Shown here piece after piece: positions 8,707 through 15,460 of a DNA stretch of 64,000 bases. How positions within the stretch are numbered: position 1 is the first letter of the stretch; every line of letters starts with the position of its first letter. The stretch is from Bdellovibrio bacteriovorus HD100 (GTDB lineage Bacteria > Bdellovibrionota > Bdellovibrionia > Bdellovibrionales > Bdellovibrionaceae): assembly GCF_000196175.1 (NCBI RefSeq), contig NC_005363.1, forward strand, positions 1,736,001 through 1,800,000, read 5' to 3'. The notes beneath the pieces are model-generated. The model made no database searches. It was not told where the DNA came from and worked only from the letters and a program-made list of their open reading frames with translations. The translations under genes were made by a program, and so were the position numbers.

Positions 8707-9633
8707 CTAGAGCCCCTTCAGGATGTCGTTCAGATGCTGAATGTGCTGAAGAGGATGTTTACCCACGTGATCAATCATCAGTTTTTTTGCGGCCTCCGCT
8801 TTGGGAACTCCTTCAAAGGTGATCAGGCGGTCCATGGCATTGGCTGATGAAACCAGCACGGCTAAAGGGTCCATGTCCTTTTCGCGCAGTCCCTTGGGGC
8901 CGGTGCCGTTGATGGTTTCTTCGTGCTGACCGATGATGTTGATCACAGTCTGGTCAAAGTGCTTTTTGTCCTGCACCTTTTGTGCACCTTCGATGGGGTG
9001 CTTTTTCCACAGCGCCAGATCTTCGGGGCTCATGCTGTCCAGGGGCTGGTTCAGGTTCAGAGGGCTGTGGTGGTGACCATAATCATGCAGCAAAGCCCCC
9101 AAAGTCAGAAGCTGGGTCTTCTTCGGATCAGTGATACCCAGTTTCTGTGCCAGCGCAATGGACAGGGTGGACACCGTCACGCCGTGATGGGAGATGGTTT
9201 TGTCGGTGTTTTCAATGTTCATCACGGCCGACAGCGCCTGGGCGTTGCTCATGATAAAGTTCACGTACTTGCCGGCCGCGTCCTTGCAGTAATTGTAGCT
9301 TTCAACGTTCTCTGGGTTTTCAAAAACCTCTTCGGCGTTGTTCTGCTGGGAGCCTTGGATGATGTCAGCACGGGTTTGGATGTCTTTTCCAGTGGTGTCG
9401 TCATAGGCGGTTTCGATATTTTTCTGCAGATAGGTGCGGTAGCTGTTTTCTTCGTCCGTGAGGATGTACATTTTGCGCAGTTTTTTGTCCTTAAGACGCT
9501 TCAGGCGCTCGCCCTCAAAGCTGTCGCCGCGACGAAGGTAGAGTATCATCTTGTCGTTGATTTTAACGTAAGCGTTGAAGTCGATCTTTTGATCGCCACG
9601 CAGGGTGCTTACTCGTATAGAAACATAATCCAT
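8707..9633 (-). CDS. HD-GYP-like signalling protein, partly degenerate
   Basis: 308 residues. An N-terminal ~80-residue region (VSIRVSTLRGDQKIDFNAYV, MILYLRRGDSFEGERLKRL) is followed by an HD domain: SHHGVTVSTLSIALAQKLG, GALLHDYGHHHSP with the HD pair, KKHPIEGAQKV, IIGQHEETINGTGPKGL. Compared with active c-di-GMP phosphodiesterases, HHE is QHE and the GYP triplet is GPK, so activity is uncertain. ATG 9633 is chosen with AGAGG just upstream. It is divergent from the pseudo-HPt gene 35 bases away. The same N-terminal region plus HD arrangement recurs in the gene at 13084-14475. Confidence 0.8.
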   Translation of the reverse strand: MDYVSIRVSTLRGDQKIDFNAYVKINDKMILYLRRGDSFEGERLKRLKDKKLRKMYILTDEENSYRTYLQKNIETAYDDTTGKDIQTRADIIQGSQQNNAEEVFENPENVESYNYCKDAAGKYVNFIMSNAQALSAVMNIENTDKTISHHGVTVSTLSIALAQKLGITDPKKTQLLTLGALLHDYGHHHSPLNLNQPLDSMSPEDLALWKKHPIEGAQKVQDKKHFDQTVINIIGQHEETINGTGPKGLREKDMDPLAVLVSSANAMDRLITFEGVPKAEAAKKLMIDHVGKHPLQHIQHLNDILKGL

Positions 9634-9668
9634 TGCCTCTGTATCCTTCGATTGGTATCTTTGAGTGG

Positions 9669-10184
9669 ATGTCGATCGATAAAGAAATTGTAGAAGATTT
9701 TGTGAACGAGTCAAAGTCCTTGATTGAAGAGTTGTTGGACCTTCTCGAAGGTATTGAAGGTGACTTTTCTCAGGTTCGAAAACTGGCCGAATATGGCAAC
9801 AACGTTGATCGCATTATGGGCGGGGCGAAGAGCCTGGCGCTGATGGCGCCACCGGACCATGCTTTGCACATGATTTCGGACTATGCGGCTTTGTGTAAGG
9901 CTGTTGGTTATAAAGCCTCACAAATTGTTGGCAATGAACAGTTTTTCAATGTTTGTGTGGCTCTGTTGCTGGATGCCACAGAAACCCTGGAAACGCTGCT
10001 GGCGAACATTCATAAAGACTCGGCGTTTTTGCGGGAAACTATTCCCCAGGCCTTTATCGACAGGCTTCGTTGGGTGTCGAATCAGTTCAATGAATCTTAC
10101 AGCTCCAGTGTGGATACGGGGGCTGCTCCGTCAAAGATGAATCAGTTTGAAATTGATGATCTGCTGAAAAAACTGGGGCTCTAG
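9669..10184 (+). CDS. Pseudo-HPt helical protein with CheZ-like C-terminal CheY-docking peptide
   Basis: 171 residues, mainly helical. The N-terminus (IVEDFVNESKSLIEELLDLL) and following helices resemble the CheA P1/HPt fold. Where HPt has AHSIKGG, this protein reads VDRIMGGAKSLAL, so the phospho-accepting His is Asp and the Lys is Met. A flexible Ser/Pro linker leads to the last residues NQFEIDDLLKKLGL, which closely match the CheZ C-terminal peptide that binds CheY (pattern Q-x-x-[IV]DDLL-x-x-LG). Role inferred: binds a CheY, perhaps as an anchor, sink or phosphatase. ATG 9669 is taken over an upstream frame; its ribosome site is weak. Confidence 0.6.
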   Translation: MSIDKEIVEDFVNESKSLIEELLDLLEGIEGDFSQVRKLAEYGNNVDRIMGGAKSLALMAPPDHALHMISDYAALCKAVGYKASQIVGNEQFFNVCVALLLDATETLETLLANIHKDSAFLRETIPQAFIDRLRWVSNQFNESYSSSVDTGAAPSKMNQFEIDDLLKKLGL

Positions 10185-12481: not shown

Positions 12482-13087
12482 ATGGAATCCGCATTTGTTC
12501 CCAGCACCTGGAGACGTTTATTTGCCCATGGCATCGATCAGATCATCAGTTTGCCATTTTATCTGCCGTTTGCCGGTGTGTTCTTAAAACTGATCTTCAC
12601 TGAAGATGATGTCATCGTGACGCTGTTGCAGTTGTTTTTGATGTTTTTGATCCCTGCGGTTTATGAGTTTGTGTTTTTGGTGATGATGCAGGCCACGCCA
12701 GGGAAATGGTTTATGGGTCTGAAAGTGGTGCCGGCCAACAACTTTACAGAAAAACTGCATTGGTCCCAGTGCCTGATGCGTCCGTTGACGGGGCGTTTGA
12801 GTTTCTTTTTCTCCTGGGGGATTTATGCCCTGGCGTTTTTCCGTTATGATCGCACGCATCTGTGTGACTGGGCGGCGGAAACCCGCGTGGTGCAGGACAA
12901 ACCCCGCACCACTCAGGCTCGCCTGCGCTGGTTGACGGGATTGTTGTTTGTGGTGCTTTATTCCTATGAAGGGCTGGTTTCGGCCCGGATGATCATGCAG
13001 TCCATTGATTGGTCGGAACGTCAGGCAAACCTGCGTGAGGTCTTTGATCTTCAGGACTATATGGATGTGACTTTCGAAGAGGATTAG
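12482..13087 (+). CDS. RDD-family membrane protein
   Basis: 201 residues. The N-terminal helix has the RDD signature (STWRRLFAHGIDQIISLPFY: Arg, then Asp in the first membrane segment). PGKWFMGLKVVP and a later Arg/Asp segment (FFRYDRTHLCDWAAETRVV) are typical of the domain. Three to four membrane helices are seen. Some RDD proteins are Na+/H+ antiporters, but function here is open. It starts at the base after the cca stop and overlaps the convergent HD gene by 4 bases. Confidence 0.8.
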   Translation: MESAFVPSTWRRLFAHGIDQIISLPFYLPFAGVFLKLIFTEDDVIVTLLQLFLMFLIPAVYEFVFLVMMQATPGKWFMGLKVVPANNFTEKLHWSQCLMRPLTGRLSFFFSWGIYALAFFRYDRTHLCDWAAETRVVQDKPRTTQARLRWLTGLLFVVLYSYEGLVSARMIMQSIDWSERQANLREVFDLQDYMDVTFEED

Positions 13088-14475
13088 GCCGCCGGTTTCC
13101 ATTTTTTGAAAATGGTTGTGGTCAAAAGAAGATCCACATTACCGGATCCGGACAGGGCTTCGTCCCGCAGGTCCTGGATGGCCTGGGTGGCGGTGCGGGC
13201 CTGTTTTCCACCTTCGCTCAGAGCGGTCATTTCGTGGAAGCGATAGGCAAAGCCCAGCAGTTTTCCAAATTCAGAAATATCTGCATTTAAAAGTTTCTTC
13301 GGGAAGCCGGTGCCGGCTCCATTTTCGCGGTGCTGGCCGATGGCCTCCGCAATCTCCTGTGGCAGGGGCACCTTTTTGGCTTTGACCATCACCACCGAGC
13401 GCTCCGGGTACAGATGATACTGGGAAAGCTCTTCCGGGGTGTAGTCTTTTGCCGCCTTGACGCCGGCTGAAACCGGCATCTGGGAAAGTCCGATATTGTG
13501 CAACAGGCCCGCGATCGCCGCGGATTCCCGTTTTTCCGCGTTCCATCCCAGCAACTGGGCAAAGTAAGCGGCGTAAGCCGATAGGCAGATGCAGTCATGA
13601 TACATGGTGCGCACGTTGCCAGAAAAGCGGAAGACCTCATCAAAAATCTCCTGCGAGGGAAGATCTTTGGTCAGCTCAAAGTCGGCAACGATGGATTTGC
13701 ATTTGTCGAGGATCACCTTGCCCTCGGAATAGTCTGTAGAGGCGCCATTCAGGAAATGCGCCATGATTTCATAGATGACTTTTTTGGAGCGGTGGAATTT
13801 TTCCGTCATCGAGATGGGCATTGGCATGTTGCGCATGCTCATCACCGTGCGGGCGTACTCAAAGAACGGTTTCATCTGGGTTTTTTTGATGTACATCTGC
13901 TGTTTTAAGGCATTGAACTTGTCCAGATGTTTCTGGTCAACCACATCTCCGGATTTTCGCATCATCACAGAGCGGTGGTTGGCGGGCAGGTGGACAAAAA
14001 CATCAAAGTTGATATTGGTGTCAGCATCCATGTCGCGCAGATCCACGGGCATCAGGGCCGTGATGGGAATCTGGTCGCCCTCCATTTCGATGGGGGCCAG
14101 CTGCAGAACCATGTCCGAGATGAATTCGCGGTCGAAGTTGATGTGCATGATCTCGTCAGCGCCGTTTTTCTTGACGATGTTGAAATCCAGCGGGGCGGCG
14201 GAAGAGTGCAGGACGATGACCGGGCAGTCAGGATAATTCATTTTGGTGGACTGCACCCATTCATTGGTCAGATTGGTGCCGTCCTGGCCATCAACCAGGG
14301 CTAAGATAGGTTTGAAACTTTCGGAAGTGCCGTGATCGAGGGCTTCGTCGATGGATTTGAAGTGCTTGAGCTGGTACGGATAGTAACCCTTCAGGATAGA
14401 GGTGATGGCTTCCCAGAAGGAGTCGCGGGGACTCCCGATGAGAACATCAACCGTCTTTCCTGATTGGGAACTCAT
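13084..14475 (-). CDS. Pseudo-receiver plus degenerate HD-GYP protein
   Basis: 463 residues. Residues 1-~125 resemble a response-regulator receiver (VDVLIGSPRDSFWEAITSIL, ILALVDGQDGTNL, CPVIVLHSSAA) without the usual acidic pair. A middle region (INFDVFVHLPANHRSVMMRK) matches the N-terminal region of the HD protein at 8707. The HD part reads AGLLHNIGLSQMP, with HD changed to HN, YHLYPERS, and IGQHRENGAGTGFP where GYP is GFP. Loss of the Asp argues against phosphodiesterase activity, so a binding or scaffold role is inferred. It overlaps cheX by 4 bases and is the last gene of the cheY-cheX operon. Confidence 0.78.
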   Translation of the reverse strand: MSSQSGKTVDVLIGSPRDSFWEAITSILKGYYPYQLKHFKSIDEALDHGTSESFKPILALVDGQDGTNLTNEWVQSTKMNYPDCPVIVLHSSAAPLDFNIVKKNGADEIMHINFDREFISDMVLQLAPIEMEGDQIPITALMPVDLRDMDADTNINFDVFVHLPANHRSVMMRKSGDVVDQKHLDKFNALKQQMYIKKTQMKPFFEYARTVMSMRNMPMPISMTEKFHRSKKVIYEIMAHFLNGASTDYSEGKVILDKCKSIVADFELTKDLPSQEIFDEVFRFSGNVRTMYHDCICLSAYAAYFAQLLGWNAEKRESAAIAGLLHNIGLSQMPVSAGVKAAKDYTPEELSQYHLYPERSVVMVKAKKVPLPQEIAEAIGQHRENGAGTGFPKKLLNADISEFGKLLGFAYRFHEMTALSEGGKQARTATQAIQDLRDEALSGSGNVDLLLTTTIFKKWKPAA

Positions 14476-14972
14476 TGCTGCACCGAAATCTCCACGTAGA
14501 AAGTGGATCCGTTCGTCAGGTTGAAGGGGATGACGAGCGTGGCACTTTTGTCAGCGTGAGTGATCTTGAAATCACCGGAGATCACGGTTGGAATGGCCAT
14601 CTCGAAGTTGTATCCCAGTTGATTCAGAGTGGTCTTGGCGGAACCGTAAATCATGTTGGTCATTTCCCCAACGGCGTCAGACACTTCTCCGTTGATGGAG
14701 GTGTGTTTTTCACCCAGCATGTTTTCCAGAATATGGAAAATACTGTCTTTGCCGTAAGAGATCAGCAAAGTGCCTTTCAAAGGCGGAGCCACCATGCCGA
14801 CCATACCGGCGATTTCCCCTTTAAGCACGAATTGTGGCTCAATGAAGGGTTTTCCAGGGGTGGCATCGGTCTGAGCAATGGTTTTCAGGGTCTTGATAAC
14901 GCCTTCGACGAAAGCATTGATCAGGCGCTTATCAAAGAGGGGATTAATAGCTTCTTTTGGTGCTGCAGACAT
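14472..14972 (-). CDS. cheX: CheX-type CheY-P phosphatase
   Basis: 166 residues, CheC/CheX/FliY-family phosphatase that removes phosphate from CheY-P. The catalytic E-x2-N motif is visible as GEVSDAVGEMTNMIYGSAK, with E103 and N106. The second helix has no such motif, as in CheX. TLLISYGKDSIFHILENMLG is the expected beta-strand and helix before it. CTGGAGAAATAA precedes the ATG. It lies 21 bases after cheY and overlaps the HD gene in an ATGA-type junction, so the phosphatase is made together with its likely substrate. Confidence 0.9.
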   Translation of the reverse strand: MSAAPKEAINPLFDKRLINAFVEGVIKTLKTIAQTDATPGKPFIEPQFVLKGEIAGMVGMVAPPLKGTLLISYGKDSIFHILENMLGEKHTSINGEVSDAVGEMTNMIYGSAKTTLNQLGYNFEMAIPTVISGDFKITHADKSATLVIPFNLTNGSTFYVEISVQQ

Positions 14973-14993: not shown

Positions 14994-15419
14994 TTAGGAA
15001 GCTTTTGCTTGTGTTGCAGGGTTGTGTTTGGCCCAAACACGTTCCATCTTGCCTTTCAGAGTGGCAGAGTTGAACGGTTTGACCACATAGTCAGAAACGC
15101 CGGCTTTGGCTGCTTCCAGGATGTGCTTTTGCTCGGACTCTGCAGTCACCAGCATAAACGGCACGGACTTAGTGCGAGGATCGGCTTTGCAGGCCTTCAA
15201 AAGGTCGATACCCTGCATTCCGGGCATATTCCAGTCCGAAATGACAAAGCCGTAAGGCTGGCCTGCATCATGAGCGGCCTGGATCATCGGCAGGGCGGTT
15301 TTACCATCATCGGCTTCCTCTACGTTGGTGTAGCCAAGCTCATTTAGCACTTTTTTAATGATTTTTCGCATAGTTGCGAAGTCATCAACGACCAAAAACT
15401 TCGTATTTGTGGGAAACAT
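14994..15419 (-). CDS. cheY: CheY-like single-domain response regulator
   Basis: 141 residues, one receiver domain. Phosphorylation residues are complete: acidic pair D12/D13 (FLVVDDFATMRKI), phospho-acceptor D62 (VISDWNMPG), T92 (LVTAES) and K114 (VVKPF). The MRKIIKKVL helix is typical of chemotaxis CheY, with an unusual Ala-rich C-terminal tail. The start is ATG 15419 with CAGGAG at ideal spacing; a longer frame to 15458 would read through the promoter. It leads the cheY-cheX-HD operon behind a predicted sigma-28 promoter. Confidence 0.93.
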   Translation of the reverse strand: MFPTNTKFLVVDDFATMRKIIKKVLNELGYTNVEEADDGKTALPMIQAAHDAGQPYGFVISDWNMPGMQGIDLLKACKADPRTKSVPFMLVTAESEQKHILEAAKAGVSDYVVKPFNSATLKGKMERVWAKHNPATQAKAS

Positions 15420-15460
15420 AATATCTCCTGAATATTGGAAACTGTGTAAAATCCTCATGC

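Follow-up and report, generated by a model that had tools for sequence, protein, structure and literature searches.

The 64,000-nucleotide stretch of the Bdellovibrio bacteriovorus HD100 genome analysed here (the window) encodes a 171-aa protein (9669–10184, + strand) in which a helical body related to the CheA P1/HPt domain, with Asp in place of the phospho-His, is joined by a flexible linker to a CheZ-type C-terminal peptide. This pseudo-HPt protein is probably an undescribed regulator of the CheY-phosphate (CheY-P) swimming signal, and perhaps its off-switch. A preliminary description of the sequence had proposed the P1/HPt fold, the replaced His, the linker, the CheZ-type tail and a link to chemotaxis; each was tested and each held, so that this interpretation is supported. 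The agents known to terminate a CheY-P signal are CheZ, CheX/CheC/FliY and phosphate sinks.

The gene is real and conserved. It runs from an ATG at 9669 to a TAG at 10182 on the + strand, exactly where the preliminary description had placed it, in a genome that forms a single contig of 3,782,950 bp. No Pfam or NCBIfam model matched the 171-aa product. Orthologues were nonetheless found in 54 of the 66 genomes of the family, single-copy, free of internal stops and 33–100% identical, and a profile from alignment A1 (49 members of the pseudo-HPt family) detected the gene in 160 of 325 Bdellovibrionota genomes of at least 80% completeness, which rules out a spurious ORF. Searching GTDB with a narrower alignment, each species being represented by a single genome, yielded 80 loci, all taken as Bdellovibrionota, the few vaguely or wrongly titled records among them having been placed by sequence or contig identity. 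One such Bdellovibrionota locus (L149) stands under the GTDB title Streptomyces griseus, which is probably wrong.

The body (residues 1–145; 9669–10103, +) was delimited from an AlphaFold2 (AF2) model built on A1 and from its CheA P1 matches. The model (pLDDT 87.7, pTM 0.84) comprises a helical bundle, a disordered linker and a terminal helix, the helices of the body spanning residues 5–29, 38–57, 65–83, 90–112, 118–123 and 127–145. When it was compared with the PDB by Foldseek, CheA P1 chains took the first two ranks, with no E-value below 0.001. By VIA-align, ranks 1 to 6 were all CheA P1 (Z 14.3 to 12.0), led by 1i5n_A (Z 14.3 across 125 residues, a small margin over the helical-bundle background of about 13), while designed bundles and repeat proteins scored at most 11.7. 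The P1 matches include CheA3 P1 from its complexes with CheY6 (3kyj and 3kyi), the CheY6-bound domain scoring Z 13.6. Since any helical bundle tends to score a high Z, the P1 assignment also needs backing from sequence. Aligned by hhalign with CheA P1 domains, mostly from the same phylum, the body reached a probability of 96.7 (E 3.9e–10), whereas the controls (the CheZ body, other Che proteins, shuffled P1 and column-shuffled P1 alignments) did not exceed 1.6%; against E. coli P1 alone the value was 53.8%. A profile search of PDB sequences ranked Thermotoga CheA P1 first, weakly (E 0.2), and a Bacteriovorax-type homologue (L081) reached 27.6 bits with the Pfam Hpt model, for which the cut-off is 24.6. 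The structural ranks and the hhalign result against its controls thus bear out a P1-like body in both fold and sequence.

With CheA P1/HPt (PF01627) the protein shares fold, helix order, the position of the helix-2 Gly and sequence profile, but it differs in standing alone, in bearing a CheZ tail and in having Asp for the phospho-His, so that phosphate can be neither taken nor given by the HPt relay route. An active HPt is ruled out by the absence of the His. Loss of the phospho-His from an HPt fold has a precedent in the plant pseudo-HPt AHP6, part of cytokinin phosphorelays, although AHP6 has neither a CheZ tail nor a role in chemotaxis. Elsewhere in the same genome (G000:C1:292084–292296), a 111-aa open frame contains an HPt domain that exceeds its Pfam cut-off, and is apparently a stand-alone HPt.

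Conservation was assessed in 94 homologues drawn from several families. The hhalign and P1 alignments place Asp47 (codon 9807–9809, +) at the phospho-His position, four residues ahead of the conserved Gly. The residue is Asp in 93 of the 94 and Glu in one, in accord with the replacement first read from the motif VDRIMGG. It belongs to a helix-2 patch, N44-x-x-D47-R48-x-x-G51 (9798–9821, +), defined from homologue conservation, a helical wheel and the CheA P1 alignment. R48 and G51 are each kept in 92 of 94, and position 44 is Asn or Gln in 91, the other three having no amide there. Outside helix 2, K77 of helix 3 (9897–9899, +) is kept in 93 of 94, and D102 of helix 4 (9972–9974, +) and R132 of helix 5 (10062–10064, +) are invariant (94/94). 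On the helical wheel, residues 44, 47, 48 and 51 lie 121–179 degrees off the hydrophobic face of helix 2; this predicts an exposed patch, situated at the response-regulator contact site of an HPt, and since the patch faces away from the hydrophobic core, folding does not explain its conservation. No conserved D with Q at +4, the catalytic DxxxQ of CheZ, occurs among the 94 homologues, just as the preliminary description had noted for the single protein.

The flexible linker that had been proposed (residues 145–157; 10101–10139, +) has pLDDT below 50 and varies in both sequence and length. Beyond it lies the predicted CheY-docking peptide, NQFEIDDLLKKLGL (10140–10181, +), recognized by CheZ alignment, pattern search and column information; E. 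coli CheZ (MG1655) ends in SQDQVDDLLDSLGF, and homologues of the pseudo-HPt protein end in AQTEIDDLLKSLGF (in one) or SQTSIDDLMSSLGL. When the full family was aligned with CheZ by hhalign, the alignment was limited to the last 18 residues, at both C-termini, and excised tail peptides aligned with positions 184–203 of the 203 in the Pfam CheZ model for three of eight tails (best E 0.018). Mean column information was highest in the tail (2.90 bits), followed by the body (2.43 bits), and lowest in the linker (1.53 bits). A degenerate form of the tail pattern had a single match in the 3.78-Mb genome, at the pseudo-HPt gene, and none in the control; together with its retention in most homologues this rules out a chance tail, and the resemblance to CheZ that had been noticed at the outset is thereby confirmed. 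The protein shares with CheZ (PF04344) its C-terminal CheY-binding peptide, judging by sequence, its place after cheY in Bacteriovorax relatives and its proposed role, but lacks DxxxQ and has a dissimilar body (hhalign 1.6%). A divergent CheZ is ruled out, as the body has no similarity and only the tail aligns.

Homologues lacking both the tail and an HPt fold, the outcome named beforehand as contrary to the proposal, did not appear; most have both. A minority (L099, L100, L196, L205 and L206) lack the tail, some of them adjoining an HD gene. Among L099, L196, L205 and L206, two are tandem paralogues beside an HD gene. A functional split inside the family is possible.

In model species, FliM binds through its N-terminal peptide to the same face of CheY as the CheZ tail. 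The FliM of this genome has an N-terminal peptide related to the pseudo-HPt tail (MNQVLSQSEVDALL, LSQSEVDALL), the two having a Q-x-E-[IV]-D-x-L-L core in common; the FliM peptide is N-terminal, whereas the pseudo-HPt tail is C-terminal with a CheZ-like LGL ending. It is very likely that the pseudo-HPt protein binds CheY.

The gene neighbourhood is that of chemotaxis. In the window, the cheX and cheY genes that the preliminary description had noted nearby lie about 4.3–5.3 kb from the pseudo-HPt gene: cheX (14472–14972, –; Pfam CheX 75.1 bits, ExxN present), of the CheY-P phosphatase family, and cheY (14994–15458, –; by Pfam an E. coli-type single receiver), the probable target, whose counterpart adjoins the pseudo-HPt gene in Bacteriovorax relatives. 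Next to cheX and cheY lies another HD_5 (HD-GYP-type) gene (13084–14475, –), whose product has a receiver-like stretch at its N-terminus. Immediately divergent from the pseudo-HPt gene, as also described earlier, is a gene for an HD-domain protein (8707–9666, –; Pfam HD_5 50.1 bits) that is HD-GYP-like; its motif is HEETINGTGPKG and its GYP part looks degenerate. No neighbour is more constant in Bdellovibrionia than this divergent HD gene, which adjoins the pseudo-HPt gene in 33 of the 76 loci analysed. Of the 76, 33 have cheY immediately upstream in the same orientation, and in 27, from Bacteriovoracia, the order on one strand is cheY – pseudo-HPt gene – cheX, which upholds the proposed chemotaxis link and puts the gene in the slot after cheY that cheZ occupies in E. 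coli. At two loci (L078:1501–4023 and L081:1585–4055) an HD-domain gene is followed by cheY, the pseudo-HPt gene and cheX, all on the same strand, which suggests a four-gene unit in Bacteriovorax relatives. A natural fusion with CheY or CheX was ruled out for L100, the long frame looked at in detail, which is an upstream frame extension that contains no domain.

Co-occurrence was counted in 242 genomes of the phylum at least 90% complete, 120 of which have the pseudo-HPt gene. Among these 120, FliM was found in all, CheX in 117 and CheA in 115; the gene occurs in just 5 of the 58 FliM-positive genomes with no detected CheA (Fisher P = 4e–21 for co-occurrence with CheA, phylogeny not corrected for). 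Of the five CheA-less genomes with the gene, three (G011, G076 and G213) have CheW-domain matches and two (G041 and G182) have none. CheZ scored above cut-off in none of the 242 genomes.

Known CheY-P phosphatases bring an acidic and an amide residue to the phosphorylation site, through DxxxQ in CheZ and ExxN in CheX (PMC3510030; PMC3035606). By analogy, the amphipathic C-terminal helix of the pseudo-HPt protein would bind the CheY face shared by FliM and the CheZ C-terminus, and the flexible linker would let the P1-like body reach the phosphorylation site as an HPt does, where Asp47 and Asn/Gln44 (and Arg48) would most likely supply the acid-plus-amide pair that orients the attacking water. 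Hydrolysis of CheY-P would thereby be accelerated on a CheA P1 fold. We consider it about evenly balanced whether the protein is indeed such a CheY-binding, tail-tethered pseudo-HPt that speeds CheY-P dephosphorylation, an analogue and not a homologue of CheZ. The order of acid and amide, N/Q-x-x-D, is the reverse of that in DxxxQ and ExxN, which counts against a phosphatase, as do the three homologues without the amide and the members that have lost the tail. An AF2 co-fold with CheY, obtained by reading through the inter-gene stop at L084, gave no confident docking (pTM 0.49, tail pLDDT 41–58, with a linker of about 22 residues and a shallow alignment). The protein would resemble CheX/CheC/FliY in the proposed chemistry, and CheX is encoded alongside in many relatives, but fold and sequence are unrelated and the pseudo-HPt protein lacks ExxN and co-exists with CheX. 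The window protein had no match to Pfam CheX/CheC, the best among the 49 relatives being one at E 0.039.

With CheX present in nearly all genomes that have the gene, a second phosphatase is not required, and the protein could instead be an adaptor whose tail captures CheY-P and which passes it to CheX or modulates CheX, with no catalysis of its own. This would suit the cheY – pseudo-HPt gene – cheX order, as well as an inspected CheX sequence that has no CheY-tethering tail of its own. We nonetheless judge it unlikely, given that 60 of the 242 genomes have CheX but no pseudo-HPt gene and that the conserved N/Q44-D47-R48 sits at the response-regulator docking face and not elsewhere. Binding alone might also suffice, the protein acting as a CheY-P sink, an anchor or a competitor of FliM that buffers or positions CheY or CheY-P; the likeness of the tail to both CheZ and this genome's FliM and the absence of a canonical catalytic motif speak for such a role, which we regard as improbable since a pure binder has no obvious need for a near-invariant D47-R48 with N/Q44 facing the phosphorylation site. 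The nearest fold being CheA P1, a decoy may be imagined, in which the pseudo-P1 takes up the kinase domain of CheA and reduces its autophosphorylation while the tail adds feedback from CheY. The strong co-occurrence with CheA and a pseudo-HPt gene directly downstream of a cheA (L099) are in its favour, but cheA is a rare neighbour, the constant ones being cheY, cheX and the HD gene, and the tail points to CheY, so we give this little credence. That the protein serves its HD-GYP-like neighbour in second-messenger signalling and not chemotaxis, for which one could cite the frequent divergent HD gene and the tail-less paralogues that also adjoin one, is very improbable given that the immediate partners in Bacteriovorax relatives are cheY and cheX and that hardly any genome with FliM but no CheA has the gene.

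Returning to the reading as a phosphatase, we would tentatively go further and suggest an independently evolved class of CheY-P phosphatase, made from P1 by a His-to-Asp change beside Asn/Gln and a CheZ-type tail, that stands in for CheZ in Bdellovibrionota. The pieces are familiar (HPt, the CheZ tail, plant pseudo-HPts), but in open-licence papers we found no description of the combination, its operon or its wide use in the phylum.

A predatory phylum with no recognizable CheZ appears to use a protein built from its kinase's own donor domain and a CheZ tail. If the protein is a phosphatase, an HPt has been turned into its own opposite, and would offer a clean test system for acid-plus-amide catalysis. 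On any of the readings, an unannotated component is added to Bdellovibrio chemotaxis.
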